DNA of 64,000 nucleotides from an uncultured Prevotellaceae bacterium (lineage in GTDB: Bacteria; Bacteroidota; Bacteroidia; Bacteroidales; Bacteroidaceae), in NCBI GenBank assembly GCA_902764705.1, contig CACWWZ010000007.1, forward strand, positions 1 through 64,000, given 5' to 3'. The notes below the pieces were generated by a model. It had not been told where the DNA came from. It saw only the letters and a list, made by a program, of their open reading frames with translations, and did no database searches. A program made the translations under genes and the position numbers. Numbering within the stretch: position 1 is the first letter of the stretch; every line of letters begins with the position of its first letter. This document shows, piece after piece, positions 6,589 through 39,565 of this stretch.

Positions 6589-7510
6589 GACTCACAAAGC
6601 AGGATTCGTGAATATTGTTGGTAATCCCAACGTAGGTAAAAGTACGCTCATGAACCAGTTGGTTGGTGAGCGTATTTCGATTGCGACGTTTAAGGCTCAG
6701 ACGACGCGCCATCGCATCATGGGCATCGTCAACACCCCAGACATGCAGATTGTGTTCTCAGACACGCCTGGTGTGCTGAAGCCTAACTACAAGCTGCAGG
6801 AGTCGATGCTGGCCTTCTCGGAGTCAGCTCTTCAGGATGCCGACGTGTTGCTCTACGTGACTGACGTGGTGGAGAACCCTGAGAAAAATATGGACTTCTT
6901 GGAGAAGGTGCAGAAAATGACCATCCCCGTCATCCTGCTCATTAATAAGATTGACGAGTTAACTAGTGATGCAAGTATGACTAGTAAGTCTAGTAATACT
7001 AGTCAGACTAGGCTGACCGCTATCGTCGACAAGTGGCACACTCTGCTCCCCAATGCGGAGATTCTGCCCATCTCAGCTAAGAACAAGTTCGGCACCGATA
7101 TGCTTCTGAAGCGCATTCAGGAACTGTTGCCTGAGAGTCCGGCGTATTTCGACAAAGACCAGCTGACAGACAAGCCTGCCCGTTTCTTCGTGTCTGAGAT
7201 TATCCGCGAAAAGATTCTGCTCTATTACGACAAGGAGATTCCCTACAGCGTCGAAGTGCGTGTGGAGAGTTTCAAGGAGACGGAGAAAAACATCCATATC
7301 AATGCCATCATCTATGTGGAGCGCGATTCGCAGAAGGGCATCATCATCGGCCATCAGGGCATCGCGCTGAAAAAAGTCTCCACCGAAGCCCGTAAAGCTT
7401 TGGAGAAGTTCTTCCAGAAGCCCATTTATCTCGAGACCTTCGTAAAGGTCGATAAGGACTGGCGCTCGTCGCAGCGTGAACTCGATGCCTTCGGCTATAA
7501 TCCCGAATAA
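6587..7510 (+). CDS. era: Ribosome-assembly GTPase Era
   Basis: 307 residues. G1 GNPNVGKST (about 11-19), G3 DTPG (about 58), G4 NKID (about 122) and the KH domain with GHQGIALKKVSTEARKAL (about 253-272) are present. Era binds the 3' end of 16S rRNA and aids 30S maturation at the membrane. Unusually, directly after NKID there is a Ser/Thr-rich stretch of about 17 residues (SDASMTSKSSNTSQTR) encoded by a 9-bp tandem array with CTAG cores; other Era proteins go straight into the following helix. The insert lies on a surface loop between G4 and G5, so activity is probably kept. Confidence 0.96.
   Translation: MTHKAGFVNIVGNPNVGKSTLMNQLVGERISIATFKAQTTRHRIMGIVNTPDMQIVFSDTPGVLKPNYKLQESMLAFSESALQDADVLLYVTDVVENPEKNMDFLEKVQKMTIPVILLINKIDELTSDASMTSKSSNTSQTRLTAIVDKWHTLLPNAEILPISAKNKFGTDMLLKRIQELLPESPAYFDKDQLTDKPARFFVSEIIREKILLYYDKEIPYSVEVRVESFKETEKNIHINAIIYVERDSQKGIIIGHQGIALKKVSTEARKALEKFFQKPIYLETFVKVDKDWRSSQRELDAFGYNPE
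6962..7015 (+). repeat. 9-bp tandem array with CTAG core inside era
   Basis: Six nonamers (ACTAGTGAT, GCAAGTATG, ACTAGTAAG, TCTAGTAAT, ACTAGTCAG, ACTAGGCTG) in phase with the codons. CTAG occurs at 6963, 6981, 6990, 6999 and 7008. Confidence 0.9.
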
Positions 7511-7546
7511 CTAGGGAGTACTAGATATACTAGAAATACTAGAAAG
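7510..7546 (+). repeat. 9-bp tandem array with CTAG core between era and der
   Basis: ACTAG occurs at 7510, 7520, 7529 and 7538, spaced 10, 9 and 9 bp, filling the short gap between the two GTPase genes. It is the same family as the array inside era. Confidence 0.88.
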
Positions 7547-7552
7547 AATAAT

Positions 7553-8866
7553 ATGGCAAACTTAGTAGCTATCGTAGGACGCCCGAATGTTGGCAAGTCC
7601 ACATTATTTAATAGGTTAACCAACTCTCGTCGAGCCATTGTGAGCGACGAGGCTGGTACGACGCGCGACCGCCAGTATGGCAAGTGCGAGTGGAACGGAC
7701 GCGAGTTCTCTGTAGTCGATACGGGGGGCTGGGTGGTCAACAGCGACGACATCTTCGAGGAGGAGATTCGCAAGCAGGTCATTGTTGCTACTGAGGAAGC
7801 CGACCTGGTGCTGTTTCTGGTGGATATCAAGAACGGCCTGACGGACCTTGACGAGGACGTAGCCCTCATTCTGCGTCGCTCTAAGCTGCCTGTCGTACTG
7901 GTGGCCAACAAGGCTGATGACGGAAAGGACCTCTACGGCCAATACGAGTTCTACAAGTTGGGACTCGGCGACCCGTTCTGTGTCAGTGCTGCTACGGGCT
8001 CTGGTACTGGCGACCTGCTTGATTTCGTGCTTTCCAAGCTGAAGGCTGACGAGGTGGACGACTTGGAGGACGGCACCCCTCGCTTTGCTGTGGTGGGACG
8101 CCCCAATGCAGGCAAGTCGAGCATCATCAACGCTTTTATCGGCGAGGACCGCAACATCGTTACCGATATTGCAGGAACCACTCGCGACTCTATCTATACC
8201 AAGTACGATAAGTTCGGCTTCGACTTCTATTTGGTCGATACGGCTGGCATTCGTCGTAAGAACAAGGTGACGGAGGACCTCGAGTTCTACTCGGTGATGC
8301 GCTCCATCCGTGCCATTGAGAACTCAGATGTCTGCATCTTGATGATCGACGCCACACGAGGCATCGAGGCTCAGGATATGAACATCTTCCAGCTCATCCA
8401 GAAGAACAACAAGTCGCTCGTCGTTGTCGTCAATAAATGGGACCTCGTCGAGGATAAGTCGCAGGCTGCTATTACGACCTTCGAGAATGCCATCCGTCAG
8501 CGTATGGCTCCGTTTGTCGATTTCCCCATCATCTTTGCTTCTGCTGTCACCAAGCAGCGCATCTTCAAGGTGCTCGAAACGGCCAAGCAGGTCTATCTGA
8601 ACCGTAAGATCAAGATCGGTACCTCGAAACTGAACGAGGTTATGCTGCCCATCGTCGAGCAGACTCCGCCTCCTTCCATCAAGGGAAAGTACATCAAAAT
8701 CAAGTACGTTTCGCAGGTGCCCGACACGCAGATTCCTACCTTTGTGTTCTATGCCAATCTGCCTCAGTATGTCAAGGAGCCCTATCGTCGTTTCCTCGAG
8801 AACAAGCTTCGCGACAACTGGACGCTGACAGGCACGCCGATTAACGTGTTTATTCGACAGAAGTAA
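7553..8866 (+). CDS. der: Ribosome-assembly GTPase Der (EngA)
   Basis: 437 residues with two consecutive GTPase domains. Domain 1: GRPNVGKST (about 8-16), DTGG (about 56), NKAD (about 119). Domain 2: GRPNAGKSS (about 182-190), DTAG (about 229), NKWD (about 295). A C-terminal KH-like domain spans about 350-437. Der acts in 50S subunit assembly. It follows era after 42 nt of repeats in the usual cluster and is very likely co-transcribed. Confidence 0.97.
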
Positions 8867-8874
8867 TTATTTAA

Positions 8875-8901
8875 CCACAGATTACACGGATTTCACGGAT
8901 T
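8875..8901 (+). repeat. 9-bp tandem array (nCACGGATT)
   Basis: CCACAGATT, ACACGGATT and TCACGGATT are three nonamers ending one base before the ATG of the following lipoprotein gene. Confidence 0.85.
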
Positions 8902-8902
8902 T

Positions 8903-9307
8903 ATGCGGAAGCAAATTCTTCATTCTTCATTCTTAATTCTTAATTTAATAGCGCTCTGTGCCTGTTCTTCTTCGACACCTGAGGAGCAGGCTGCCCGTGC
9001 GGCTCGCGGCTATTATCAGTGCCTGATTGACGACCGCCCAGAGGAGTTCCTTCGGGGCAAGGCCAATGCTGATAGCTTGCCTGACAGCTATCGTGCACAG
9101 CTGCTGAAGGTCATCAATCAGTATCGTGCAGATATGCTCGACAAACATAATGGCCTGAACGAGGTGCAGGTGTCCGACAATGTAGCCCGTCGCGATACTT
9201 CGCTAAATCTGACCTACGCCTTCTTGATTCTGTGCTATGGTGATTCTACACAGGAGGAAATCACCGTTCCTATGGTCGAGCGCAATGGCCAGTGGCTGAT
9301 GAAATAA
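8903..9307 (+). CDS. Small lipoprotein, DUF4878-like
   Basis: 134 residues with a lipoprotein signal ending LIALCAC (Cys about residue 20). The remainder resembles the small NTF2-like/DUF4878 lipoproteins of Bacteroidota: a helix with RAARGYYQCLIDDRPEEFL, then strands ending TVPMVERNGQWLMK. Function is unknown. The hydrophobic core of the signal peptide is encoded by four heptamers (ATTCTTC/ATTCTTA, 8915-8942). The last 44 bp of the gene recur at 11450-11493. Confidence 0.7.
   Translation: MRKQILHSSFLILNLIALCACSSSTPEEQAARAARGYYQCLIDDRPEEFLRGKANADSLPDSYRAQLLKVINQYRADMLDKHNGLNEVQVSDNVARRDTSLNLTYAFLILCYGDSTQEEITVPMVERNGQWLMK
8915..8942 (+). repeat. 7-bp tandem array inside a signal-peptide coding region
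   Basis: ATTCTTC twice and ATTCTTA twice encode HSSFLILNL in the lipoprotein signal. Confidence 0.85.
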
Positions 9308-9342
9308 ATGCGTAATCATTAAAACAAAAAGAAATAGCGACT

Positions 9343-9741
9343 ATGAAGAAAGTATTGTTAACTATGTTTTTCGCTCTGACAGCCCTCGCAGGCTGGTCGC
9401 AGGACATTATGGGCAAGTGGGTCACAGAGGCTGGCGACGCCCAGGTTGAAATCTATCAGCAGGGCGACAAGGTGAACGGCAAGATCGTCTGGTTGAAACA
9501 GGGTCCTGAGACTAAGGACAAGCACAACCCCGATGCCAAGCTTCAAGGGCGTAAGCTTATGGGCGTTCACATCCTAAGCGGCCTCTCGAAAAAGAAGGAC
9601 AAGTGGGAAGGAGGCAAAATCTACAACCCCAAGAACGGCAAGACCTACAAGTGTGCCATCTGGCTCGATGGCCAGAACCTGAAAGTCCGCGGCTACCTCG
9701 GCCCGTTCTACGAGACGCAAGTCTGGAAACGCGCAAAGTAA
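9343..9741 (+). CDS. DUF2147 family secreted protein
   Basis: 132 residues with a cleavable signal peptide (MKKVLLTMFFALTALAGWSQ). The mature part matches DUF2147: DIMGKWVTEAGDAQVEIYQ, a GKIVWLK strand, GRKLMGVHIL, GGKIYNPKNGKTYKC and the end VRGYLGPFYETQVWKRAK. The family forms a small periplasmic beta-barrel of unknown role. It is 35 nt after the lipoprotein gene. A short hairpin (CGGCAG/CTGCCG, 9748-9762) follows. Confidence 0.85.
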   Translation: MKKVLLTMFFALTALAGWSQDIMGKWVTEAGDAQVEIYQQGDKVNGKIVWLKQGPETKDKHNPDAKLQGRKLMGVHILSGLSKKKDKWEGGKIYNPKNGKTYKCAIWLDGQNLKVRGYLGPFYETQVWKRAK

Positions 9742-9827
9742 ATAGGTCGGCAGCGCCTGCCGTCATAACGGGCCTAGCCTAACTTATACGAATGCAATCC
9801 GCGTAGAAATAACGGAACATGCAAACA

Positions 9828-9853
9828 GTGACGGGTGGAATTTGTCCCGTCAC
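9828..9853. repeat. inverted repeat at the edge of the RAYT repeat array
   Basis: GTGACGGG (9828-9835) and CCCGTCAC (9846-9853) are perfect complements with a 10-nt loop; the right arm is the start of the first 35-bp unit. Confidence 0.8.
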
Positions 9854-9979
9854 TTAACAGCAAATTTCATTTATCATTGTCCCGTCACTTAACAGCAAAT
9901 TTCATTTATCATTGCCCCGTCACTTAACAGCAAATTTCATTTATCATTGTCCCGTCACTTAACAGCAAATTTCATTTGC
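9846..9979 (+). repeat. 35-bp tandem repeat, 3.8 copies, upstream of RAYT
   Basis: Units begin CCCGTCACTTAACAGCAAAT at 9846, 9881, 9916 and 9951 and are almost identical. The last is cut short and ends in the perfect hairpin GCAAAT-TTC-ATTTGC (9965-9979), two bases before the transposase ATG. Confidence 0.92.
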
Positions 9980-9981
9980 GA

Positions 9982-11016
9982 ATGACTAACGAGAACAAAA
10001 GCACGCCCAAGAACGAAACCTTCACATGGTTGCAGCCAGGGGCTTGGCGCAAGCCCTGCATCGTGCATGTCACGATGGTGGCCAACTCGCGGCAGGCGTT
10101 GTTTGGCAAACTCACGCATAATGGTTCTGAGGCGGTGATTGAAAAGACACCCATTGGCTGGGCGCTCATCAATCAGCAGCGCAGGTTGTTGGAACTGTGT
10201 CCTGAAATCAAAATCCTTGCAGACAAAGTGATGCCTGACCATCATCACATCGTGTTTCAGGTGCAGCGAACGATGCCTCGTAGTATCAGGGAAGTGGTGC
10301 GTGGCTATATGCAAGGCTGCAAAGAGGAGGCACGCAAACATGGATTCACAGAAAATATTTACGATGGCCCGCCATTTTATCGTGTGCTGACACACAAAGG
10401 GCAACTTCACGCCATGATAGAATATGTGAAAGCCAATACTGAGCGTGCATGGCAGCGCCGACAGAATCCCGATCTTTTCCGTATGCACCGCAAGACAGAG
10501 GCGTGTGGCTTGCTGTTTACCTCAATGGGTAACCATTTCTTGTTGGAGTGGCCTGACAGACAATTGGTGGAGATGAGCCGGAGTGCCAGCAACGAGCAAA
10601 TAGATGAGAGGTTGAAATCAGTATTGGCAGCAGCTCATAATGGCGCTGTGACTTATACTGCAGCTATTAGCACAGGTGAACGCATAATAGCCAGAACGGT
10701 GCGTGAGAAGGGGTTCCCGTTGGTGGTTCTGCTGAATGATGGATTTCCTGCCGAGGGGTCGCCCCATGAGCGTTTCTACAAACCGGGCGGAGCTTATTAA
10801 GACGCCTGTTCCAAAGGGCGGTTGTTGCTCATGGAACCAGATAAGAGCGCCTTTGTCAATCCTGCGGTGATGATGGCTACTGAGGAGGCTTTGCGACGGA
10901 AGGCTAAGGCTAAACATATTGTTTATACTGCCGTTCCCGTGGAATCGCAACGCTACAGATTCGTCGCTCTGAATGAAATGGGGCGAATGTTGGTAATGCG
11001 ACAACATGCTGTCTGA
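9982..11016 (+). pseudogene. REP-associated tyrosine transposase (RAYT/Y1) homologue with in-frame stop
   Basis: The reading frame from ATG 9982 encodes 272 residues to TAA at 10798-10800, then continues open in the same frame to 11016, giving a full-length product of about 344 residues. The first part has Y1-transposase features: the metal-binding motif KVMPDHHHIVF (about residue 86) and the candidate nucleophile Tyr in MIEYVKANTERAW (about 153). The part after the stop (DACSKGRLLLMEP ... ALNEMGRMLV) continues the domain begun before it (GFPLVVLLNDGF ... KPGGAY), so one codon changed to TAA is the simplest reading. RAYTs process REP palindromes; tandem repeats lie upstream and palindromes downstream. 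The longest ORF begins at TTG 9976, but ATG 9982 is better. Confidence 0.8.
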
Positions 11017-11082
11017 ATCCCTGCCAGGACGGGACTTTTCCCCCTTTTCCTCCCTGGTTGTAATGAAGGCGATATTGCTTCC

Positions 11083-11109
11083 GACACCAAAACAAGTTGT
11101 TTTGGTGTC
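11083..11109. repeat. 27-bp palindrome (REP-like), copy 1
   Basis: GACACCAAAACAA-G-TTGTTTTGGTGTC is a perfect palindrome with a single-base centre, located just after the RAYT homologue. Confidence 0.9.
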
Positions 11110-11150
11110 ATAGAAGGCCTTTCTTTCATCGTAAAGTGCCGTTTCTTTCC

Positions 11151-11173
11151 CACCAAAACAACTTGTTTTGGTG
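11151..11173. repeat. 23-bp palindrome (REP-like), copy 2
   Basis: CACCAAAACAA-C-TTGTTTTGGTG is the same palindrome as copy 1, 41 bp further on, with the complementary centre base. Confidence 0.9.
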
Positions 11174-11449
11174 TCGTAGATGACGTAGAAAGCCTGTGTA
11201 GAAAGGGAGGTGACATGTCCTGACTCCTAACCATTTCCTTACATTTCTTCAAGGGCAGGACTGCAGATCTGGCTCGTTTTTACTAGTTTAAGTAGGCGAT
11301 TCTTGTCCATCGGTCCAATCCACCTATATATATGTATGGATTGAACCGACAGACAAAAATCTTATCGCAGAGCGCAGATTATGAGGACTATTCCGCGTAA
11401 TACCATTCAACTGAAAAATGGATCATTCAGAACCGTCCCAATTTTCTCC

Positions 11450-11493
11450 CCGTTCCTATGGTCGAGCGCGACGGGCGGTGGCTGATGAAATAA
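11450..11493 (+). pseudogene. remnant of a second copy of the small lipoprotein gene (3' end only)
   Basis: 44 bp match the last 44 bp of the lipoprotein gene (9264-9307) at 40 positions and would encode VPMVERDGRWLMK and a stop. No matching 5' part is present. The rest of 11017-11525 holds the two palindromes and no convincing gene. Confidence 0.7.
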
Positions 11494-11525
11494 CCTTTTT
11501 GTCAGCACCTTTTTGTTTTTCAAGG

Positions 11526-11619
11526 GTAACTAAATCCTTTCGTTAGTAACTAAAAAAAGAGTTTAATAACCGTTAAAAACTAAGGCTTTTAGTTGTATAT
11601 AACGAAAAGATTTAGTTAC
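11526..11619. promoter_or_regulatory. operator/promoter region of the blaI-type operon
   Basis: The 20-mer at 11526-11545 (starting GTAACTAAATC) is inverted at 11600-11619 (ending GATTTAGTTAC) with one mismatch. Two further dyads with the same ACTAA/TTAGT half-sites lie inside: TTAGTAACTAA at 11543-11553 and AACTAA-N5-TTAGTT at 11578-11594. The right arm abuts the likely -7 box TTACTTTG (11616-11623). This layout suggests repression by the BlaI-type protein encoded next. Confidence 0.7.
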
Positions 11620-11679
11620 TTTGCGCTCAGATATTGACAATTGACGCAAGTAACGATTGAAACTAAAAGCAAAAAGGCA

Positions 11680-12054
11680 ATGAAGAAACTGACCAACAAG
11701 GAAAAGGAAATCATGGACCTCTACTGGAAGCACGGTCCCATGTTCGTTCGCGAGTTGCTGGAGCATTACGACGAGCCCCGTCCACACTTCAACACGCTGT
11801 CAACCATCGTGCGTATTCTGGAGCGTGAGGGATTCCTCGGTCATAGGCAGTTTGGCAATACCTACCAGTACTATCCGCTGATTACGGAGGATGAGTACGG
11901 ACGCAGGTCGATAGCAGGTATCATCAAGAACTATTTCAACGACTCCTACCTCTCTGCCGTCTCCTCGTTTGTCAAGGAAGAGAAGATCAGCGTAGAAGAA
12001 CTGCGCGAACTCATCGACGAGATTGAGGAATGTGGAATGAGGAATTTGGAATGA
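11680..12054 (+). CDS. BlaI/MecI/CopY-family transcriptional repressor
   Basis: 124 residues from ATG 11680; the longer frame starts at TTG 11641 next to the promoter and is less likely. The winged helix is clear: LTNKEKEIMDLYWKHGPMFV (about 3-22), RPHFNTLSTIVRILEREGFL (about 35-54) and the wing HRQFGNTYQYYPLI. The C-terminal helices are the dimerisation and cleavage region of the family. The last residues (ECGMRNLE) are encoded by a heptamer array. It precedes an M56 membrane peptidase, the typical sensor-protease partner that inactivates BlaI. The inducing signal is unknown. Confidence 0.9.
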   Translation: MKKLTNKEKEIMDLYWKHGPMFVRELLEHYDEPRPHFNTLSTIVRILEREGFLGHRQFGNTYQYYPLITEDEYGRRSIAGIIKNYFNDSYLSAVSSFVKEEKISVEELRELIDEIEECGMRNLE

Positions 12055-12061
12055 GGAATTA
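12027..12061 (+). repeat. 7-bp tandem array at the blaI 3' end
   Basis: Five heptamers of GGAATGA type cover the last codons and the stop of the repressor gene. Confidence 0.82.
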
Positions 12062-12130
12062 TTCTCGCTTCGCTGCGATGGTCGAATGTAGAATTCTCAA
12101 TTATTCATTGATCAATTGCTGCAGGCGACC

Positions 12131-12165
12131 ATTCAACATTCAACACTCAACATTCAACACTCAAC
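12131..12165 (+). repeat. 7-bp tandem array upstream of the M56 gene
   Basis: ATTCAAC, ATTCAAC, ACTCAAC, ATTCAAC, ACTCAAC: five heptamers ending 12 bp before the ATG at 12178. Confidence 0.88.
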
Positions 12166-12177
12166 ATTAAAGTAAAT

Positions 12178-13932
12178 ATGATTGACTTTCTGATATACGA
12201 CCTCAAGGTGGCGGTGTTCATCATCGTATTCTACATGTTCTACCGCTTGCTGCTCTCCCGCGAGACGTTCCATCGGGTGAACCGAGTGGTGCTGCTTCTG
12301 ACGGCAGTAGCCTCGTTTGTGCTTCCCCTGTGTGTCATTACGATGCACGAGACGGTGACCATTCAGGCCGTGCCTGAGGTAAGCATCGGCGATGTGCAGA
12401 TGACGCTGGCTGAAGAACCAGCAACACCCCTGTGGCAAATCGCCCTACCTATATTATATATAATAGGTGTGGCAGCGACGCTGGGGCACACTCTGTTGTC
12501 TGTATGGAAAGTCTTGCTCTTGATACGACAAAGCGAACAGCATCCTGAACCTGATGGCACCATCGTCTGCGTGACCGGTAACGCTGACGTGGCTCCTTTC
12601 AGTTGGATGCGCTATATTGTGATGAATCGTGGCGACTATGAGGCACGCGATGCCGCCATTCTCGCCCATGAACGGGGACACATCCGCCTGCGTCATTCGT
12701 GGGACGTGCTCCTCGTGGACCTGCTCACCGCCCTCCAGTGGTTCAACCCAGCTATGTGGATGCTGCGCCAGGATTTGCGCGCCATCCACGAATACGAGGC
12801 CGACGGTGCAGTACTCTCTCAAGGGATTAACGCGCGTCAATATCAATATCTGTTAATCTCGAAGGCCACAAGCATTGGCGGGTACTCCATTGCTAACGGC
12901 ATCAGTCACAGTACCCTCAAAAACCGTATTCACATGATGACAAATAAGAAAACCCGCAGCAGCCACCTGTTGAAGCTGCTCGCCCTCGTGCCCATCGTCG
13001 GCACAGCTCTCGCCCTCAATGCCCGTACCGTCACCGACTATGTCTACGATGAACCCCAGAAGAAAATCATCAAGAAGGGCAAGGCGAATGCCAAAATCAA
13101 TGCTGGTACCGTTGGCGAAGTCGTAGTAGTAGAGCAGGCTCCAGCCGTTCAGCAAGACGCTAAGACATACACCATTCGTGGTGTTGTGAAGGACAAAGAC
13201 AAGAAAGAACCTGTTGTTGGTGCTGTTATCAGAGTCAATGGCTCTAAGAAAGGTACCGTAACGGATAGTAACGGTGAGTTCTCGCTGGAAGCGAAGAAAG
13301 GCGATCGGATAGAAGTGATGTATGTGGGTTATGCCAGCGGATCAATAGTTGTCAATGACCCACAGGTCAAGTATGACCTTCGTTTGCAGAAGGATGATAG
13401 TGATGAGTCGAATACTAGTGGCAAGCCATTCGATGTTGTAGAACAGATGCCTCAATTCCCTGGCGGTCCTGCAGCATTGATGGAGTTCCTGTCCAAGAAC
13501 GTCAAGTATCCTCAAGAAGCGTATAAAAACGGAATCCAAGGCCGCGTCATAGTCACCTTCGTCATTAACAAAGACGGCAGCATCTCGGATGCCAAGGTGG
13601 TTAAGTCCGTCGACCCGCAATTAGATGAAGAGGCGCTACGTGTAGTCCATTCTATGCCAAATTGGATCCCTGGTAGGCAGAATGGTGAACCTGTGAATGT
13701 AAAATACACCGTTCCCATCACATTCAAGTTGCAGGGGAATGAGTCCAAAGAGGTTGTCGGGGTAACCAGTCTCAATGCCAAAGCCTTCGACTTAGAGGTG
13801 GACGGCAAATTGATGGATGCTGAAGCGCTGAATAGTATCAACCCTGACGACATTGAAAGCATTCATGTCGATAAGCCAAAGGACGGTCAGACGAAAGGCC
13901 GTGTCAGCGTCAAGTTAAAAGGAAAGAAATAA
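12178..13932 (+). CDS. BlaR1/MecR1-like M56 peptidase fused to carboxypeptidase-regulatory-like and TonB C-terminal domains
   Basis: 584 residues. Transmembrane helices at about 7-25, 35-55 and 90-110; the zinc motif HERGH is at about 160 with the third-ligand region HEYEADGAVL at about 203; a fourth helix (LLKLLALVPIVGTALAL) follows. Residues about 325-405 form a carboxypeptidase-regulatory-like module (TIRGVVKDKDKKEPVVGAVI) and about 415-520 a TonB_C domain (YPQEAYKNGIQGRVIVTFVI). In BlaR-type systems the cytoplasmic protease cleaves the BlaI partner after the outer domain senses a signal; here the sensor part is replaced by TonB-like modules, a Bacteroidota variant. Substrate and signal are unknown. 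Confidence 0.88.
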   Translation: MIDFLIYDLKVAVFIIVFYMFYRLLLSRETFHRVNRVVLLLTAVASFVLPLCVITMHETVTIQAVPEVSIGDVQMTLAEEPATPLWQIALPILYIIGVAATLGHTLLSVWKVLLLIRQSEQHPEPDGTIVCVTGNADVAPFSWMRYIVMNRGDYEARDAAILAHERGHIRLRHSWDVLLVDLLTALQWFNPAMWMLRQDLRAIHEYEADGAVLSQGINARQYQYLLISKATSIGGYSIANGISHSTLKNRIHMMTNKKTRSSHLLKLLALVPIVGTALALNARTVTDYVYDEPQKKIIKKGKANAKINAGTVGEVVVVEQAPAVQQDAKTYTIRGVVKDKDKKEPVVGAVIRVNGSKKGTVTDSNGEFSLEAKKGDRIEVMYVGYASGSIVVNDPQVKYDLRLQKDDSDESNTSGKPFDVVEQMPQFPGGPAALMEFLSKNVKYPQEAYKNGIQGRVIVTFVINKDGSISDAKVVKSVDPQLDEEALRVVHSMPNWIPGRQNGEPVNVKYTVPITFKLQGNESKEVVGVTSLNAKAFDLEVDGKLMDAEALNSINPDDIESIHVDKPKDGQTKGRVSVKLKGKK

Positions 13933-13945
13933 ACACTCTCTCGTT

Positions 13946-15106
13946 ATGCATAGGCTATTCACTATGTTCATCCTCGCCCTGCTGACGGCAGCCACCGCCA
14001 GGGGCGAGGTTTTGGATTCTCTACAGATATGCGTCCAGCAGGGCGACAGCTGCATGCAGCAGTATAACACCTTCGAAGCATTGAAGCATTACCAGCAGGC
14101 CTTTGATGTCGCATCGAAGCAAGGCATCGTCCGTTTCTCGATGAACGACGATTTCAGCCATTCACGGCCATACGTCCCTGAAGACGTAGTGCCAAAAACG
14201 GTTCGCCTGAAACTGGCCGACTGCCACTACAAACGCGCCAACTATCGCCAGTGCGCCGAGCTGTTGAAGAACATGTCGGAGGACTCGCTCACGCATGATG
14301 CTTTCCGACAGCTCGTCTATAGTTACAAGCATCAGGGCGATAACGGGGCGTATATGTATTGGGCCAGTCAGCTGCTGAAGCGTTATCCGATGGATGGTGA
14401 GATAGTGGCAGGTCTTGCCCTCGCCTATGCCCGCGATAATCAGCCCCAGAAAGGCATTGTCTGTGCGGCAATGTATACGTTGAAGGACTCAACGAATATC
14501 CTTGTCAACCGTGCTGAGGCCGAGTCTTGGCTGTTGAATGGAGACTATACAATGGCTGCCAAGCTCTACAACCGTCTTCTGCAGCAGGGCGACTCCACCT
14601 TTAGCACGCTCTATTCCGCCGGCATGTGCTACACCAAGACCGACTCGCTGGAACGGGCCTACCAATGTCTGAAGCCGGCTCTCTGGCTCAGTGGCATGAA
14701 GCACTATGGTGCTGCCTACCGGCTTGGTGTGGTGTGCGTCGACACGCAACGCTACGATGAGGGGTTGGGTTATCTTAGTCTCGCCATGCAGTTGATGCAG
14801 CCCGACACTACCGCCATGAAGGCCATCACGCTCTCGCAGGGCGAAGGCTACTATCTGACGGAGCATTACGAGGAGGCCGTTGCTGCATGGAAGGAACACC
14901 TGACCTATAACCCCGCGTCCATCGCCACCTATTATAATATTGCCAATGCCTATGCCTATCTTCTCAAGGACAAGGAGCAGGCCAAGACCTACTACCAGCA
15001 CTTCCTCAACCTCGCCCGAAAAGAGGAAGACCCCAATGTCCAGCTCACTGAGATGATAGCAAAGGCAGAAGAGAACCTGAAGTCCGCGATACATAATACG
15101 CGGTGA
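13946..15106 (+). CDS. Secreted tetratricopeptide-repeat protein
   Basis: 386 residues, signal peptide MHRLFTMFILALLTAATARG. TPR-like helical pairs are visible at about 35-55 (ALKHYQQAFDVASKQG), 190-215 (AAKLYNRLLQQGDSTF), 240-275 and 310-350 (YEEAVAAWKEHLTYNPASIATYYNIANAYAYL). It starts 13 nt after the M56 gene, so it belongs to the same operon and may assemble with it in the periplasm. No catalytic motif was found. Confidence 0.85.
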   Translation: MHRLFTMFILALLTAATARGEVLDSLQICVQQGDSCMQQYNTFEALKHYQQAFDVASKQGIVRFSMNDDFSHSRPYVPEDVVPKTVRLKLADCHYKRANYRQCAELLKNMSEDSLTHDAFRQLVYSYKHQGDNGAYMYWASQLLKRYPMDGEIVAGLALAYARDNQPQKGIVCAAMYTLKDSTNILVNRAEAESWLLNGDYTMAAKLYNRLLQQGDSTFSTLYSAGMCYTKTDSLERAYQCLKPALWLSGMKHYGAAYRLGVVCVDTQRYDEGLGYLSLAMQLMQPDTTAMKAITLSQGEGYYLTEHYEEAVAAWKEHLTYNPASIATYYNIANAYAYLLKDKEQAKTYYQHFLNLARKEEDPNVQLTEMIAKAEENLKSAIHNTR

Positions 15107-15146
15107 TATCTCCAGCAAGGCGACGATGATACCGTTTCATAACATC

Positions 15147-15230
15147 CATCATTGCCTTAGTTTTATCAATCATTGTCTTTGATTTAACAATCAACGCCTT
15201 TGATTTATCAATCATCGTCGATGATTTAAC
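15147..15230 (+). repeat. 21-bp tandem repeat, four copies
   Basis: Units at 15147, 15168, 15189 and 15210, each of the form AATCAnnGnCTTTGATTTAnC. They are noncoding and follow the TPR gene. Confidence 0.88.
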
Positions 15231-15395: not shown

Positions 15396-15418
15396 GGCCT
15401 CGACAGTCTGTCCCCTTA

Positions 15419-24893: not shown

Positions 24894-24895
24894 TG

Positions 24896-30947: not shown

Positions 30948-30981
30948 ACGTTAATAGAAATAGCAATTATATTTCTTTAAC

Positions 30982-31022
30982 CAAAAAAAAGGCCGAGATG
31001 TTTTGCATCTCGACTTTTTTTT
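30982..31022 (+). terminator. terminator after tig
   Basis: CGAGATG (30994-31000) pairs with CATCTCG (31006-31012) around a TTTT-G loop, followed by a run of T and preceded by a run of A. Confidence 0.88.
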
Positions 31023-31023
31023 G

Positions 31024-31031
31024 TAATTTTG
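31024..31031 (+). promoter_or_regulatory. -7 promoter element of clpP
   Basis: TAATTTTG directly after the tig terminator; the clpP ATG is about 70 nt downstream. Confidence 0.65.
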
Positions 31032-31104
31032 TATCTACTTTACGCAAAAAAAGGCAGACAACGTCCTGCTTTTGTCATAAATAACGAAAATAGGAGAAGA
31101 CTAT

Positions 31105-31770: not shown

Positions 31771-31779
31771 GAGGCAGAA

Positions 31780-32994
31780 ATGGCTAACAGATGTAATTTC
31801 TGTGGACGTACAGAGCGCGAGGTGAAACTCCTGATAACGGGTGTTAATGGTGCTATCTGTGAGGATTGCGCTGTACAGGCCTACCAGGTAGCTACAGCTA
31901 ACGGCTATGGTCCTGACGCAAAGAAAAAGCCTGGTTCGGGTAAGAAGTTGAACGTCCCCAAACCTAGGGAGATCAAGGCCTATCTGGATCAATACGTTAT
32001 TGGACAGGACGAGGCTAAGCGATACCTCTCTGTGGCTGTCTACAATCACTATAAGCGTCTGCAGCAGCCCGACAGCGACCAGGGTGTGGAGATTGAGAAG
32101 TCGAACATCATTATGGTTGGCTCAACGGGTACCGGTAAGACTTTATTGGCACGTACTATTGCCAAATTACTTGACGTGCCGTTCACTATCGTCGATGCTA
32201 CCGTCTTTACGGAAGCTGGCTATGTGGGTGAGGATGTGGAGAGCATCCTGACCCGTCTGTTACAGGTAGCTGACTATGATGTGGCATCCACTCAGCGCGG
32301 CATTGTCTTTATCGATGAAATTGACAAGATTGCCCGTAAGTCGGACAATCCCTCCATCACTCGCGACGTCAGTGGTGAAGGTGTGCAACAGGGCCTGTTG
32401 AAGTTGCTCGAAGGAACCGTTGTCAACGTTCCCCCCAAGGGAGGCCGTAAGCACCCTGACCAAGAATATATTGGTGTCGACACACGCAATATCCTGTTTA
32501 TTTGCGGAGGAGCCTTCGACGGCATCGAGCGTAAGATAGCACAGCGCATGAATACCCATACGGTAGGTTATAATTCAGTACAGAATGTGCGCAAAATTGA
32601 CAAGGAGAATCTGATGCAGTATATTGCTCCGCAGGATTTGAAGTCGTTCGGACTTATTCCTGAGATTATTGGTCGTCTGCCTGTACTGACCTTTCTGAAT
32701 CCGTTGGATCAGGAGGCGCTGACAAAGATTCTGACAGAGCCTAAGAACTCCATTATCAAGCAGTATGAGAAATTGTTTGAAATGGATGGCATCAAGCTTA
32801 CCTTTACCCCTGAGGCCTTGAAACTCATTGTCGACAAGGCCGTTGAATATAAGTTGGGTGCTCGCGGATTGCGTTCCATCGTGGAGAATATCATGATGGA
32901 GCCGATGTTCGAGATACCTTCCAAACGCGTAAAATCCTTTGAAGTGACAAAGGAGTTTGCCCAGCAGCAACTCGACAAGTCGCATCTACAATAA
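31780..32994 (+). CDS. clpX: Clp protease ATP-binding subunit ClpX
   Basis: 404 residues. The N-terminal zinc domain has CNFC (about 5-8) and CEDC (about 27-30). Walker A GSTGTGKT (about 111), Walker [14 protein letters not shown] (about 175), sensor 2 region [15 protein letters not shown] (about 355). It unfolds tagged substrates and feeds ClpP. It is in an operon with clpP; recQ follows after 14 nt. Confidence 0.97.
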
Positions 32995-33008
32995 CATTCT
33001 TAAAGTCT

Positions 33009-35192
33009 ATGGCAAAAAAGAAACAAAATCTGACAGAAGCGCTCAAGAAATATTTTGGCTTCGACAAGTTCAAAGGCGATCAGGAAGCTATCGTGCAGAA
33101 TGTGTTGGATGGCAAGGATACCTTTGTGCTGATGCCTACGGGTGGTGGCAAATCGCTTTGCTATCAGCTTCCCTCATTGTTAATGGATGGCACTGCTATT
33201 GTTATTTCACCTTTGATAGCCTTGATGAAGAATCAGGTTGATGTCATCAGTTCGATGAGTGATGAGGGAACAGCCCACTATCTGAATTCCTCGCTCAACA
33301 AATCGGCCATCGACCAAGTGAAGGCCGATATATTGGATGGTAAGACGAAGTTGCTCTATGTGGCTCCTGAGTCGCTGACCAAGGAAGAGAATGTGGAATT
33401 CCTGAAACAGGCAAAGATTTCTTTCTATGCCATTGATGAGGCGCATTGTATTTCGGAGTGGGGTCACGATTTCCGTCCGGAGTATCGCCGTATCCGTCCG
33501 ATTATCAACGAGATAGGTCCTGCACCTATCATTGCGCTGACAGCAACGGCCACAGATAAGGTTCGTACGGATATCAAGAAGAACCTAGGCATAACAGATG
33601 CTACAGAATTCAAGAGCTCATTCAATCGCCCTAATCTCTATTACGAGGTTCGTCCCAAGACACAGGACGTTGACAAGGATATTATCAAGTTCATTAAACA
33701 GCACCCAGGCAAGAGTGGCATTATCTATTGTCTGTCGCGTAAGAAGGTGGAAGAACTGGCTGAGATTCTGAAAGCGAATGACATTAAGGCGGCACCCTAT
33801 CATGCTGGACTTGAGTCGGCTCTGCGTTCACAGACTCAGGACGACTTCCTGATGGAGGAGATTGACGTCATCGTGGCCACCATTGCCTTTGGAATGGGTA
33901 TCGATAAGCCCGATGTACGCTTTGTCATCCACTATGATATTCCCAAATCGCTGGAAGGCTACTATCAGGAAACGGGTCGTGCCGGACGTGACGGAGGGGA
34001 GGGCATGTGCATTACTTTCTACGCCCAAAAAGACTTGCAGAAGCTGGATAAGTTTATGGAGGGCAAACCCGTTGCTGAGCAGGACATTGGTCGCCAGTTG
34101 TTGGCCGAGACGGCTGCCTATGCAGAGACCAGCGTCTGTCGCAGAAAAATGCTGCTGCACTATTTTGGTGAGGAGTATACTCAGGATAATTGCCACAATT
34201 GCGACAACTGTCTGCATCCCAAGACGAAGCAGGAGGCAAAGGACCTGCTGGTCATCGTGCTGAAAACAATTCAGGCACTGAAAGAGAATTTCCGTTCAGA
34301 CTATATTGTCGACTTCGTCATTGGTAAGGAAACGGAGGAGATACTGGCTCACAAGCACCACAACCACGAGTTGTTTGGCGCAGGTGAGGATTTGGAACAC
34401 AAGCTGGTGAATCCTGTCATTCGACAGGCACTCATCGCAGGCTATCTGAAAAAGGATGTCGAGAACTACGGACTGCTGAAACTGACTTCGGCAGGTAAGA
34501 AGTTCCTGAAGAATCCGGTCTCGTTTATGATTGTAGAGGACAACGAGTTCAACGAGGACTATGATTCGTCGTCAGAGCACGACGCAGGTATCAGTGCCCT
34601 CGACGAGACGCTGAGTGCCATGTTGAAGGACCTTCGTAAGAAGGTTAGCCGTAAGCTGGAACGTCCGCCATATGTTATTTTCCAGGATGTGTCTATTGAG
34701 CAGATGGCCACCGACTATCCTGTCACCTTGGAAGAACTGAAGAACATTCAGGGTGTTGGTGAGGGAAAGGTCCGCCAACCCTATGCCAAAGAGTTTGTCG
34801 ACTTGATCAAGCGCTACTGTGAAGAGAACGAGATAGAGCGTCAGGCTGATATGCGTGTGCGTACGGTGGCGAAGAAGTCGATTCTGAAGGTGAAGATCAT
34901 TCAGGCCATCGACCGTCAGATAGCTCTCGACGACATTGCCACAGCTCAGGGCTTGGAATTTGAGGAGCTGCTCGACGAAGTTGAGGCCATTGTATATAGT
35001 GGCACCAAACTCAATATCGACTATTTCCTGGAGGAGGTGATGGACGAGGATCATGTCGACGACATCTACGACTACTTTGCCGACAGCGAGAGTGACTCGC
35101 TCGAGGATGCTATCAACGAGTTGGGTGCTGAATGTACGGAAGACGAAATCCGACTGGTGCGCATCAAGTTCATCAGCGATATGGCGAACTAG
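33009..35192 (+). CDS. recQ: ATP-dependent DNA helicase RecQ
   Basis: 727 residues. Motif 0/I MPTGGGKSLCYQLPSL (about 38), motif II IDEAHCISEWGHDFRPEYRR (about 145), motif VI QETGRAGRDGG (about 320), zinc site CRRK...CHNCDNC (about 378-402), winged helix, and HRDC (about 545-620, with LKNIQGVGEGKVRQPYAKEF). An extra C-terminal part of about 100 residues is rich in acidic residues. It unwinds DNA 3' to 5' in recombination repair. Confidence 0.95.
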   Translation: MAKKKQNLTEALKKYFGFDKFKGDQEAIVQNVLDGKDTFVLMPTGGGKSLCYQLPSLLMDGTAIVISPLIALMKNQVDVISSMSDEGTAHYLNSSLNKSAIDQVKADILDGKTKLLYVAPESLTKEENVEFLKQAKISFYAIDEAHCISEWGHDFRPEYRRIRPIINEIGPAPIIALTATATDKVRTDIKKNLGITDATEFKSSFNRPNLYYEVRPKTQDVDKDIIKFIKQHPGKSGIIYCLSRKKVEELAEILKANDIKAAPYHAGLESALRSQTQDDFLMEEIDVIVATIAFGMGIDKPDVRFVIHYDIPKSLEGYYQETGRAGRDGGEGMCITFYAQKDLQKLDKFMEGKPVAEQDIGRQLLAETAAYAETSVCRRKMLLHYFGEEYTQDNCHNCDNCLHPKTKQEAKDLLVIVLKTIQALKENFRSDYIVDFVIGKETEEILAHKHHNHELFGAGEDLEHKLVNPVIRQALIAGYLKKDVENYGLLKLTSAGKKFLKNPVSFMIVEDNEFNEDYDSSSEHDAGISALDETLSAMLKDLRKKVSRKLERPPYVIFQDVSIEQMATDYPVTLEELKNIQGVGEGKVRQPYAKEFVDLIKRYCEENEIERQADMRVRTVAKKSILKVKIIQAIDRQIALDDIATAQGLEFEELLDEVEAIVYSGTKLNIDYFLEEVMDEDHVDDIYDYFADSESDSLEDAINELGAECTEDEIRLVRIKFISDMAN

Positions 35193-36714
<1,522 letters not shown>

Positions 36715-36735
36715 TATTAAATAGAGAAAAGTAAA

Positions 36736-38169
36736 ATGAAAAAACTCATCATTGCTGCTTTTAGTGCAGTTGTTCCGTTTACTGCTATTTTTGCTCAGAG
36801 CAGTGATCCTATAGTGATGACTGTGGCAGGTGTGGATGTACCGCGTTCGGAGTTTGAGTATTCGTACAACAAGAACAATACCGACGGTGTCATAGACAAG
36901 AAGACTGTCGAGGAGTATGTCGAATTGTTTGTTAATTACAAGTTGAAGGTACAGGCTGCTTTGGATGCGCGTTTGGATACCACAACGGCTTTCCGTAAGG
37001 AGTTTGCACAATATCGTGACCAGCAGATCCGTCCGACATTCGTTACGGACGAGGATATGTTGGCTGAGGCACATAAGGTGTACGACGAGACTGTGGAGCA
37101 AATCGGCCCCGATGGTCTGGTCAGTGCTGCCCATATATTGATTCTGACTCCCCAGAAGGCGACAGAAGAACAACAGCGTGAGGCCAAGCGTCGTATCGAC
37201 TCGGTGTATACTGCCCTGCAGGCTGGTGCCGATTTCGAGGCGTTAGCCAAGCAGGTCTCTCAGGACCCAGGCTCAGGCCGTCGTGGTGGCATGTTGGGAT
37301 GGTTCGCCAGAAAACAGATGGTCAAGGAGTTTGAGGACGAAGCCTTCGCCTTGCAGCCTGGAGAGATGAGCAAACCTTTCTTGTCGCCTTATGGCTGGCA
37401 TATCATCCTGATGAAGGAGCGCAAGCAGTTTGAACCGTTTGAGTTCCATAAGGAAAACATCCTGCGTTATTTGGAGCAGCGTAATGCCCGTGATGCCATT
37501 ACAGAACAGAAACTGAATGCGATAGTTCAGGCCTCGAATAATACGGTGACAAAGGAGAGTCTTCTCGACCAACGTGCAGATTCCCTGTCGGCTGCTGATC
37601 CTGAGATGCGTTATTTGATTAAGGAATACCACGATGGTTTGTTGCTTTTTGAAATCAGTAACAGCACCATCTGGGAGAAGGCTGCACAGGACGAGCAGGC
37701 CATTGAGAACTACTTCAAGAAACATAAAAAGCAGTATAAGTGGGACGAGCCCCGCTTCAAGGGTATGGTGTACCACGTGAAGAATCAGGCTGACGTCAAG
37801 GCTGTGGCGAAATGCGTGAAGAAACTGAAGTTCGACGACTGGAACGAGGCGTTGCGCACTACGTTCAACAAGGACTCCGTCATTCGTATTCGTGCAGAGA
37901 AGGGTATTTTCAAGAAGGGCGACAACAAACTTGTCGATCGCGAAATATTCAAGGTGGCTGATGTTCAGGTGGACAGTGTCAAGGGATATCCTATTGATGC
38001 CGTTTATGGCAAGCTGTTGAAGAAACCTCAGGACTATACTGATGTGCGTGCTCTTGTTTTGACTGATTTGCAGGACGAAATGGAGCGTCAGTGGGTAGCC
38101 GACCTTCGCAAGAAGTATGCCGTCATAGTGAATGATGAAGTATTAAAGACCATTAATAAGCATGAGTAA
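36736..38169 (+). CDS. Periplasmic parvulin-type peptidyl-prolyl isomerase (SurA-like)
   Basis: 477 residues, signal peptide MKKLIIAAFSAVVPFTAIFAQ. A SurA-type N-terminal helical domain precedes one rotamase domain (about 130-235: VSAAHILILTPQKATEEQQ ... LGWFARKQMVKEFEDEAFAL ... SPYGWHIILMKE). The rest (about 240-477) is a degenerate second half. It likely chaperones outer-membrane proteins. It ends inside the next gene (8-bp overlap), so the two PPIases are coupled. Confidence 0.9.
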   Translation: MKKLIIAAFSAVVPFTAIFAQSSDPIVMTVAGVDVPRSEFEYSYNKNNTDGVIDKKTVEEYVELFVNYKLKVQAALDARLDTTTAFRKEFAQYRDQQIRPTFVTDEDMLAEAHKVYDETVEQIGPDGLVSAAHILILTPQKATEEQQREAKRRIDSVYTALQAGADFEALAKQVSQDPGSGRRGGMLGWFARKQMVKEFEDEAFALQPGEMSKPFLSPYGWHIILMKERKQFEPFEFHKENILRYLEQRNARDAITEQKLNAIVQASNNTVTKESLLDQRADSLSAADPEMRYLIKEYHDGLLLFEISNSTIWEKAAQDEQAIENYFKKHKKQYKWDEPRFKGMVYHVKNQADVKAVAKCVKKLKFDDWNEALRTTFNKDSVIRIRAEKGIFKKGDNKLVDREIFKVADVQVDSVKGYPIDAVYGKLLKKPQDYTDVRALVLTDLQDEMERQWVADLRKKYAVIVNDEVLKTINKHE

Positions 38170-39565
38170 AAGAATTCTAGTTATACTAGTATTTCTAGTA
38201 TCCCTAGTTTCACTAGTTAATGCCCAGACTGATTCCTTGGGAACGATTGTCGACGAGGTAATATGGGTGGTAGGCGATGAGGCTATCCTCAAGTCTGATG
38301 TGGAGGCTATGCGCATCCAGGGGCAGCAGGAAGGCTTGCGTTGGAAGGGAGACCCCGATTGTTCCATTCCAGAACAGATTGCCGTCCAGAAACTCTATCT
38401 TAACCAGGCGATTATCGATAGTGTGGAGGTCACTGAGTCTGAAATTACCCAAGGTGTAGAGCAGTATATCGAAAATATGATATCAGTCATTGGCTCTCGC
38501 GAGAAGCTGGAGGAGTATCAGGGAAAGACACTGAGCCAGATTCGTTCTGAGTTGCGCGACTCGTATCGTGAGCGTCAGATGGTACAGGGCATGCAGAGAA
38601 AACTGGTGGAAGATATCGCAGTGACACCTGCTGAGGTGCGTCGTTATTTCAAGGATATGCCACTCGACAGCATTCCCTTTGTTCCTACGGAGGTCGAGGT
38701 GCAGATTATCACTCAGCAACCACGTGTAGAACAAGAGGAAATTAACCGCGTGAAGGAACGTCTGCGCGAATTTACGGACCGTATCAATAAGGGAGAGACT
38801 TCGTTCCAGACATTAGCTCGCCTGTATAGCCAGGACGGCTCTGCCCGTAATGGCGGTGAGTTAGGATACACAGGCCGTGCAGGATGGGTTCCTGAGTTTG
38901 CCAATGTGGCTTTCAACCTGACTGATCCTAAGCGTGTATCGAAAATTGTTGAGACTGAATTTGGCTTCCATATTATCCAGCTGATAGACAAGCGTGGCGA
39001 CAAGGTGAATGTGCGCCACATTCTGCTGAAACCTGAGATTAGTGACGACGCCATCCAAAAGGCGCTCAACCGTTTGGACTCTGTGGCAAATGACGTGAGG
39101 GCAGGAACGGTTCCTGTGGCCTTGAAGCCTTATTTCAAGGGAGAAACATTCACCTTCGAGGATGCGGTGTCAGTATATTCTGACGACAAAGACACACGCA
39201 ACAACAATGGTCTGATGGTTAATGTCACACAAGAAAGCCGTACGTCACGCTTCAAGTTGGCCGACCTGCCTCAAGAAGTGGCCAAGGTAATTGACGGACT
39301 ACAGGTTGGCGAGGTGTCGAGTCCCTTCGAAATGATTAACGAACGTGGTAAAACGGTGTGCGCTATCGTCAAGCTGAAGAGCCGTACAGAGGGCCATAAG
39401 GCCACGATTACTGAAGACTTCCAGATCCTGAAGAATATGGTACTCGAGAAGCGCCGTCAGGAGAAACTCCATCAGTGGGTGGTCAACCGCATCAAGTCAA
39501 CCTATGTGCGTATCAACGAGCGCTATCGTGACTGCCAGTTTGAATATGAAGGCTGGGTACGGTAA
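38162..39565 (+). CDS. surA: Periplasmic peptidyl-prolyl isomerase SurA
   Basis: 467 residues. N-terminal SurA domain (about 25-160: VDEVIWVVGDEAILKSDVEAMR), first parvulin domain (about 175-280: LYSQDGSARNGGELGYTGRAGWVPEFANVAFNL), second, divergent one (about 285-400). The signal peptide is odd: its hydrophobic core VILVFLVSLVSLVNAQ is encoded by five 9-bp units with CTAG at exact 9-bp spacing (38177-38216). It assists outer-membrane protein folding; neighbours encode envelope functions. Confidence 0.9.
   Translation: MSKRILVILVFLVSLVSLVNAQTDSLGTIVDEVIWVVGDEAILKSDVEAMRIQGQQEGLRWKGDPDCSIPEQIAVQKLYLNQAIIDSVEVTESEITQGVEQYIENMISVIGSREKLEEYQGKTLSQIRSELRDSYRERQMVQGMQRKLVEDIAVTPAEVRRYFKDMPLDSIPFVPTEVEVQIITQQPRVEQEEINRVKERLREFTDRINKGETSFQTLARLYSQDGSARNGGELGYTGRAGWVPEFANVAFNLTDPKRVSKIVETEFGFHIIQLIDKRGDKVNVRHILLKPEISDDAIQKALNRLDSVANDVRAGTVPVALKPYFKGETFTFEDAVSVYSDDKDTRNNNGLMVNVTQESRTSRFKLADLPQEVAKVIDGLQVGEVSSPFEMINERGKTVCAIVKLKSRTEGHKATITEDFQILKNMVLEKRRQEKLHQWVVNRIKSTYVRINERYRDCQFEYEGWVR
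38176..38220 (+). repeat. 9-bp tandem array with CTAG core in the surA signal peptide
   Basis: CTAG at 38177, 38186, 38195, 38204 and 38213, exactly 9 bp apart. On the minus strand the units read ACTAGnnnn or close variants, matching the era array. Confidence 0.92.

Follow-up and report, generated by a model that had tools for sequence, protein, structure and literature searches.

CTAG nonamer arrays of a Prevotellaceae genome as probable solo arrays of an element built on a four-helix-bundle protein

In a 64,000-nucleotide stretch of DNA from an uncultured Prevotellaceae bacterium (GenBank assembly GCA_902764705.1, contig CACWWZ010000007.1), hereafter called the window (contig C7 of a genome of 3.42 Mb in 147 contigs, 84.9% complete), 9-bp units with a CTAG core form arrays inside the genes era and surA and in the gap between era and der. 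We consider it probable, at roughly two chances in three, that these nonamers are solo cognate arrays of an element built on a four-helix-bundle protein of the S23/TIGR02436 type, namely its TIGR04258 "suffix" branch. Most suffix-type genes of related genomes have degenerate arrays of short period no more than ∼250 bp from one end or from both, the core and the period of these arrays track the branch of the protein, and some hosts also have the same arrays scattered through gene gaps and tolerant coding stretches. The best-supported reading is an element that resembles the repetitive extragenic palindromic (REP) sequences, their doublets forming hairpins (REPINs), and the REP-associated tyrosine transposases (RAYTs), yet is unrelated to them, with REPIN-like dispersal in some hosts.

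CTAG nonamers in the window and across the genome

The era gene (6587..7510, + strand; Pfam MMR_HSR1, 1.6e-24, and KH_2, 3.7e-21) codes for a GTPase with a KH_2 domain, and its period-9 array (6963..7011, +), translated as Thr-Ser-x, lies in a GTPase loop following the residues INKID, in which relatives differ. A previous model-made interpretation of this DNA (the sequence-only reading) had counted six units here; five show an exact CTAG, but the sixth has decayed to CAAG, and the CTAGs are spaced by 18, 9, 9, and 9 bp. Likewise, the four units it had placed at 9-bp spacing between era and der were recovered by motif spacing as four CTAGs (7511..7542), but one of the three spacings (10, 9, and 9 bp) deviates. 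This array occupies the gap upstream of der (7553..8866, +), a double GTPase with two MMR_HSR1 matches and a KH_dom-like match in Pfam. In the gene for a SurA-like peptidyl-prolyl isomerase (38162..39565, +; Pfam Rotamase, 1.4e-30), five CTAGs exactly 9 bp apart, as had been stated, constitute the core of the signal peptide in a Leu-Val-x reading (38177..38216, +). All five Leu codons of this array are CTA, which makes up 4.4% of the Leu codons in the larger open reading frames (ORFs) of the window (p = 1.6e-7). CTAG as a whole was below expectation in the window even with the arrays included (50 versus 94.6), and CTAGN5CTAG occurred nine times versus 0.42 expected, a count reached by none of 100 shuffles; apart from the small corrections above, the earlier observation was confirmed. 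Codon use, array placement, and the control genes described below rest on ORF-based heuristic gene calls and not on a dedicated gene finder.

The sequence-only reading had named the lack of further arrays as a possible objection to its own inference. A search of the + strand of this genome for three units (CTAGN5CTAGN5CTAG) yielded 105 places, 6 in the window and 99 beyond, versus 2 for the reversed control, so that this objection fails. In 448.5 kb of the genome (the window plus 20 stretches, 17 of them centred on a known array), distances between pairs of CTAGs peaked sharply at 9, 18, 27, 36, and 45 bp, with 84, 64, and 42 pairs at the first three of these distances, 3 pairs at 8 bp, and 10 pairs at 10 bp. 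Broken units retained the register and were mostly one base off: among 125 units of this genome, 9 were broken and 10 of 500 core bases changed, numbers in which array finding by CTAG favours the core, although the register still allows broken units to be counted. Agreement between neighbouring units was 0.79 at spacer position 5, 0.25 (the random level) at position 6, and 0.40 to 0.55 at positions 7 to 9, and the consensus unit here combines the palindrome ACTAGT with three less constrained bases. Since the palindromic core is conserved while the spacers vary widely, it is the DNA unit that is kept or spread. Some arrays contain identical adjacent units and higher-order repeats, and the identity of neighbouring units points to local tandem duplication.

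Consistent with the earlier observation of different frames and roles, units are translated as Thr-Ser-x in linkers and loops, as Leu-Val-x in signal peptides, and as Leu-x-x-Leu elsewhere, or are untranslated. Seventeen of 25 arrays in this genome were coding and 8 intergenic. Seven arrays between tandem genes started 1 to 11 bp past the preceding stop codon (one 87 bp) and ended 4 to 11 bp before the next start codon (one 575 bp); because these distances are short, most of them fill their gap. In named genomes, the same period-9 CTAG (CTAG-9) pattern was found in at least 117 stretches; the 146 arrays in the 117 listed were coding in 59 cases, intergenic in 71, and at gene ends in 16.

Comparison of the era loop across 29 genomes revealed a short loop of 60 bases shared by 19 of them and longer loops in 10. 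The longer loops contain the CTAG nonamers in this genome (G000), nonamers with a TCNGANTAN core in G035 and G027, decayed CTAG-like units in G013, unrelated palindromic inserts in G028 and G034, and other inserts in G006, G020, G022, and G031. Because 10 of the 29 loops are longer and hold different inserts, the era loop is a tolerant site where differing repeats settle. The CTAG period-9 array was not found in the 140 bases 3' of era in any of the other 28 genomes, and the surA array was not found in the printed stretch of 11 other parsed orthologues (16 further loci were unparsed). With no array in those 11 surA orthologues, the objection that the same residues might be kept at the protein level fails as well. 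The inference of the sequence-only reading that the DNA unit, and not the protein, is selected or spread was right and, if anything, understated. The palindromic inserts in the era loops of G028 (L055) and G034 (L050) are in frame and resemble palindromic elements known from within coding genes.

Four-helix-bundle genes bordered by short-period arrays

In five genomes of one other genus (G115, G212, G292, G356, and G415), the sole four-unit array is located directly upstream of a gene for a protein of 192 to 197 amino acids. An NCBIfam scan of one of these five proteins identified TIGR04258, "four helix bundle suffix" (E = 1.5e-19), with TIGR02436 below cut-off, and Pfam scans of three, including the former, each gave a weak match to PF05635. 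Suffix-type proteins passed the TIGR02436 cut-off (over 24 bits) in five of five cases, one other protein (L260) scored 19.5 bits, and the PF05635 score was under the gathering threshold in all eight proteins matching. No transposase or helix-turn-helix family was matched in family scans of the bracketed proteins, which returned PF05635, TIGR02436, and TIGR04258. In a zinc-ribbon branch of the family, a C-terminal PF01396 domain (Top1 zinc finger, DNA-binding) scored above cut-off in the one protein scanned. Solved natural relatives by sequence are 2GSC (XCC0516, from Xanthomonas by name) and 2RLD; some designed TIM barrels match too. Searches for relatives of one CTAG-9 protein in viral_contigs and of one zinc-ribbon protein in phages found none. 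At L299 and L340, the suffix domain is fused to a second domain, MeaB-type GTPase-like by eye, in an ORF of 577 to 579 amino acids that has no array at threshold.

A TIGR04258 profile search of 66 chosen genomes detected the family in 33 of them and in 0 of 14 control genomes. From this search 51 suffix-type genes were parsed, which are hence drawn from chosen and not from random genomes; eight zinc-ribbon genes were scored apart. Arrays next to suffix-type genes have period 8, 9, or 10 and occupy one end of the gene or both; some are translated as N- or C-terminal tails. Counting an array as beside a gene if it scored 14 or more with a period of 8 to 10 within the flank windows, we found arrays at 44 of the 51 suffix-type genes versus 10 of 184 comparably sized control genes taken from L074-L113 (8 genomes; Fisher's test, 1.8e-30), and on both sides of 13 of the 51 versus 1 of the 184. 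In the reverse direction, 6 of the 117 listed stretches fetched by the CTAG-9 pattern alone contained a suffix gene 0 to 69 bp from the array; two of these six genes have arrays on both sides, and one of the six comes from an isolate, Prevotellamassilia timonensis Marseille-P2831T (L142). A CTAG-9 array also lies ∼40 bp past the stop codon of a gene annotated as four-helix suffix in Prevotella nigrescens FDAARGOS_1486; 150 kb of that replicon contain two further CTAG-9 arrays, and CTAG is present there at 0.02 to 0.22 per kb.

Array type followed the phylogeny of the proteins. On a tree of 80 proteins, 74 labelled genes required 7 changes of period (2000 shuffles: mean, 26.9; least, 21), and suffix types alone required 6 (mean, 13.4; least, 9). 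When core and period were combined, 17 changes were counted (mean, 47.2; least, 40), or 14 within suffix types only (mean, 34.2; least, 28). All 28 CTAG-labelled genes fell into one clade of 35, the rest of which comprises three other labels and four genes without array, and the four TCNGANTAN genes formed a separate clade. In the zinc-ribbon branch, six of eight genes, the ones having arrays, showed CGNNATNN at period 8. The tree resulted from a quick search and has long branches in the plain S23 group; core classes are simple string counts, the labels of L328b and L391 rest on weak or neighbouring arrays, 8 of 82 genes were left out of the labels as they lack an array, and two fused proteins were left out of the tree.

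To what extent the array type of a gene recurs elsewhere in its genome was assessed in 50 genomes for each type, once the gene's own array was known and with own arrays subtracted. Period-8 CTAG arrays away from the gene were present in both predicted genomes (35 and 4 places) versus 1 of 48 others; the totals were 53 in G397 (18 own) and 8 in G268 (4 own), and the only other genome was G216 with 1. Arrays of CGNNATNN away from the gene were detected in all six genomes with a bracketed zinc-ribbon gene, in neither of two with an unbracketed one, and in 14 of 42 others, with totals (own arrays in parentheses) of 30 (8) in G001, 19 (2) in G019, 21 (6) in G268, 19 (9) in G006, 34 (16) in G028, and 3 (0) in G008; some genomes without such a gene were strong as well, i.e., G371 (120), G237 (107), G000 (54), and G007 (48). 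Period-10 arrays away from the gene occurred in three of four genomes with a period-10 gene (49, 34, 2, and 0 places) versus 6 of 46 others, the totals being 59 (10) in G008, 34 (0) in G027, 9 (7) in G029, and 1 (1) in G115. The others were G019 (25), G000 (9), G268 (4), G142 (3), G010 (1), and G013 (1), with none in 39; the single period-10 place of G001 was its own, at a CTAG-9 gene. For CTAG-9 itself, three-unit places away from the gene numbered 206 in G009, 111 in G007, and 81 in G017, and four-unit places 79 in G237 and 63 in G268. In G007, whose gene carries a ACTAGTNNN array, 111 of the 113 three-unit places are thus elsewhere. Dispersal of arrays was seen, for example, in G007, G009, G017, G237, G268, G397, G008, and G027.

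Plain S23 genes were found next to heptamer arrays. The sole relative in G035, a plain four-helix gene, is flanked on either side by period-7 arrays in inverted orientation, and G216 has a plain four-helix gene with period 7. Among 22 plasmid records with a plain relative, 14 genes were fetched (13 cyanobacterial and 1 from Riemerella), and each of them had an array (score of 12 or more) not more than 250 bp away, with period 7 or 14 in 13 cases and period 8 in one. Array density at these 14 loci was 28 in 7.8 kb of gene flanks versus 10 in 33.7 kb elsewhere. Trichormus variabilis ATCC 29413 has a plain S23 gene with heptamer arrays on its plasmid C (L390). The 14 plasmid loci, for which the PLSDB gene table lists no RNA genes, and L378 lie among protein-coding genes, and none is located in ribosomal RNA (rRNA). 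Some plain S23 genes interrupt operon-like sets for ribonucleotide reductase, CRISPR-Cas, or conjugation. On cyanobacterial plasmids, plain S23 genes were seen between cas genes at L380, L384, and L389 (cas6/cas4; cas10/Cmr3-family).

A cognate-array element and its alternatives

As a mechanism, we propose that the four-helix-bundle protein binds the array as a multimer, with about one protomer or dimer per unit of 7 to 10 bp, which would explain the retention of just two features, the palindromic core and the spacing. Conservation and symmetry of the core, the spacing, and the co-variation with the protein all suggest DNA binding. The protein is a candidate for the reader of 9-bp-spaced DNA envisaged in the sequence-only reading, whose other proposal, an expansion or insertion mechanism, is likewise possible. 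Dispersed arrays would arise from or be maintained by the protein, as REPs by RAYTs, and could outlive loss of the gene; that arrays move is suggested by their scatter and patchiness. CTAG-9 is one among several array families with periods of 7, 8, 9, and 10. We also lean, with less assurance, toward a broader view, by which S23-superfamily genes and short-period arrays would form one unrecognized class of elements in Bacteroidota and Cyanobacteria, each branch with its own core and spacing (7, 8, 9, or 10 bp). The dispersed arrays of this class would then include many "simple" repeats from between genes, among them the short tandemly repeated repetitive (STRR) heptamers of cyanobacteria and perhaps those of Xanthomonas and Beggiatoaceae, and would occupy gene gaps as well as stretches within core proteins, Era for one. 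Searches of open papers listed no article that connects S23/TIGR04258 genes with tandem arrays; subscription papers lay outside their scope, so an earlier description is possible.

In RAYT/REP/REPIN systems, the gene lies near cognate palindromic repeats that have many dispersed copies, and the repeat type matches the protein subtype (PMC3116915, PMC8049555). The genes described here are similarly flanked by cognate repeats, as the 44 of 51 versus 10 of 184 illustrate. Unlike in those systems, the protein is a four-helix bundle and no Y1/HUH tyrosine transposase, and the repeat is an array of 7- to 10-bp units with fixed spacing and free spacers, many of them translated, instead of one longer palindrome.

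The STRR heptamers of cyanobacteria were reportedly described by Mazel in 1990. Avd of diversity-generating retroelements is a four-helix bundle of the same superfamily and binds nucleic acid; unlike in these retroelements, no reverse transcriptase was annotated around the 14 plasmid genes or L378, the loci examined in this respect. Heptamer repeats have been described in Nostoc, Xanthomonas, and Beggiatoaceae (PMC4692102, PMC4679880), and STRRs and other heptamers, like the present arrays, are short tandem repeats, mostly intergenic and patchy across taxa. Unlike STRRs, the CTAG arrays of the window have period 9, and in our material heptamers occur at plain S23 genes and periods 8 to 10 at suffix-type genes. 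As far as their main text goes, neither "S23" nor "four helix" occurs in these two papers, one of which proposes RNA-binding regulators of S1, Csp, and Csr types as heptamer readers (PMC4679880). The intervening sequences (IVSs) of 23S rRNA contain a gene of the same superfamily by weak to moderate matches (PF05635, TIGR02436) in an insert termed selfish (PMC4990558); unlike these, the genes studied here lie between protein-coding genes, with tandem arrays at their ends and dispersed solo arrays, and, at those annotated loci that were examined, outside rRNA. BldC sets a precedent for a small protein that reads variable numbers of 9-bp repeats cooperatively, but it is MerR-like with a winged helix, an unrelated fold, and its directional repeats are regulatory sites (PMC5859096).

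Several results weigh against a cognate-array element. No suffix-type gene was found by profile searches in this genome at its completeness of 84.9%, nor in the array-rich G010, G357, G216 (99% complete), G031, and G429 (83 to 84%), and a plain four-helix query at 1e-4 had no match in the window or in 69 further stretches. The array-rich G035 has only the plain four-helix type with period-7 arrays, G027 and G033 have 52 and 56 CTAG-9 places and their parsed genes carry other arrays, and G371 has 22 four-unit places and a gene without array. In such array-rich genomes without a matching gene, the arrays either outlast the gene, arrive with it and stay, or have another reader. Seven of the 51 suffix-type genes lack an array at threshold (L277, L290, L299, L300, L322, L327, and L340), and G019 has its 25 period-10 places with no matching gene parsed. 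Arrays of TCNGANTAN away from the gene gave no support, as they were present in only two of four genomes with the gene versus 12 of 46 others, several of them rich (totals with own arrays in parentheses: G002, 61 [17]; G001, 4 [1]; G019, 5 [5]; G292, 2 [2]). Finally, all counted CTAG-9 places are the gene's own array in G005, G006, G015, G115, G212, G292, G356, and G415.

Alternatively, the arrays may be host-level operators or nucleoid-protein sites, i.e., have a regulatory or architectural role of the four-helix protein or another factor, with autoregulatory arrays at the gene and no selfish spread. Five species of one genus keep a single, operator-like array just upstream of the gene and no other counted place, binding would fit a strongly conserved core between free spacers, and BldC demonstrates cooperative binding to variable numbers of 9-bp direct repeats (PMC5859096). 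Against this, arrays lie within era, surA, and mutL and fill very narrow gaps, which would be odd for operators; several plain S23 genes, with an array on either side, are located amid the genes of unrelated operons; and presence is patchy within genera. We therefore regard this explanation as possible but doubtful. Orientation bears on an RNA-level element, in which transcribed arrays would fold through palindromic units or inverted arrays and be bound as RNA by the four-helix protein, as might S23 proteins of 23S rRNA IVSs. Two-sided period-7 arrays were inverted in 9 of 12 pairs, and the IVS of Coxiella encodes an S23 protein and is termed a selfish element (PMC4990558). In contrast, pairs of period 8 to 10 were mostly direct (16, with 2 inverted and 1 neither; n = 19), arrays are also present between convergent genes, and DNA as the target is suggested by the zinc ribbon in one branch, which leaves an RNA-level element rather improbable.

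Ordinary slippage microsatellites with no partner protein would account for the identical adjacent units and higher-order repeats of some arrays, but not for spacers far more varied than the core, for the same core at unrelated loci, or for the tie to one protein family whose tree is tracked by period and core; we consider this very unlikely. Next to no weight can be given to protein-level selection for Ser/Thr linkers or Leu/Val signal peptides, which the coding arrays in loops, linkers, and signal peptides might suggest: the noncoding arrays share the unit and refute it, the rare codon CTA runs throughout the surA array, and the unit has three different readings. Neutral birth and death of units was rejected, as spacer divergence far exceeds core change. 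Avoidance of CTAG through a methylase or restriction was rejected too, since it accounts for the rarity of CTAG and not for the arrays. TrpR and MetJ, with their ACTAGT or 8-bp tandem operators, had been considered as CTAG readers and were set aside after the linked gene was found.

If an element built on the four-helix-bundle protein is indeed the source of the arrays, short repeats lacking a partner, such as STRR-type heptamers and CTAG nonamers, would gain a partner protein and a testable cause, and a family known mainly as "four helix bundle protein" would gain a suggested role. It is apparent, too, that DNA-level elements rewrite loops, linkers, and signal peptides of core proteins, and do so in frame because a period of 9 equals three codons. 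Should the protein read core and spacing, which its tree suggests, its branches would provide a natural series on the step of a multimer along DNA (7, 8, 9, and 10 bp).

Distribution and other array families

With one genome sampled per species, 19 of the 36 genomes from the genus contained three-unit CTAG-9 arrays (range, 0 to 213 places; reversed control, 0 to 7), as against none of 24 genomes from other families of the order. Of 393 genomes sampled across the order, 16 had four-unit arrays; species rich in them and species with none occurred in one genus, and 3 of the 16 (G074, G122, and G168) showed near-identical units. Among the matches listed in the scan of named genomes, most were metagenome-assembled genomes of Bacteroidales, many from rumen or gut and many of Prevotella, with Victivallales and single others, which suggests that the host of the window is Prevotella-like. 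Nearly all listed CTAG arrays of G010 lie within ∼180 kb (C3:1520000-1703000; L036-L042), often with similar flanks; no four-helix-suffix gene was found in this crowded region or in the G010 genome. Avoidance of CTAG differs greatly between relatives of the genus, and CTAG is nearly absent (0.04 to 0.1 per kb) in G016 (L074-L080) and G028 (L107-L110).

Besides CTAG-9, the window contains one TCNGANTAN array, two CGNNATNN period-8 arrays, and 14 period-7 arrays. The TCNGANTAN array (42251..42293, +), identified by scan, MutL domains, and translation, has period 9 and lies in the linker of mutL (41209-43083), where it is translated as YTQNTPNTQSTPS; it belongs to the same family as the era loop arrays of G027 and G035. 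One CGNNATNN array is intergenic (2833..2858), and the other (57450..57483, +) crosses the end of a gene for a cytidylyltransferase-like protein. Period 7 is the commonest family of the window, exemplified by 12130..12171; its arrays lie at 4763, 6557, 8915, 12021, 12130, 24262, 43082, 47911, 55785, 56884, 59711, 62412, 63310, and 63443. A motif-free scan of the 448.5 kb detected 60 arrays of period 7, 16 of period 8, and 25 of period 9, versus none in one Markov resample; the period-9 count is no fair density, as 17 of the 20 fetched stretches were centred on CTAG arrays. Two adjoining degenerate arrays of period 11 were also seen within a predicted ORF of the window (50451-50591).

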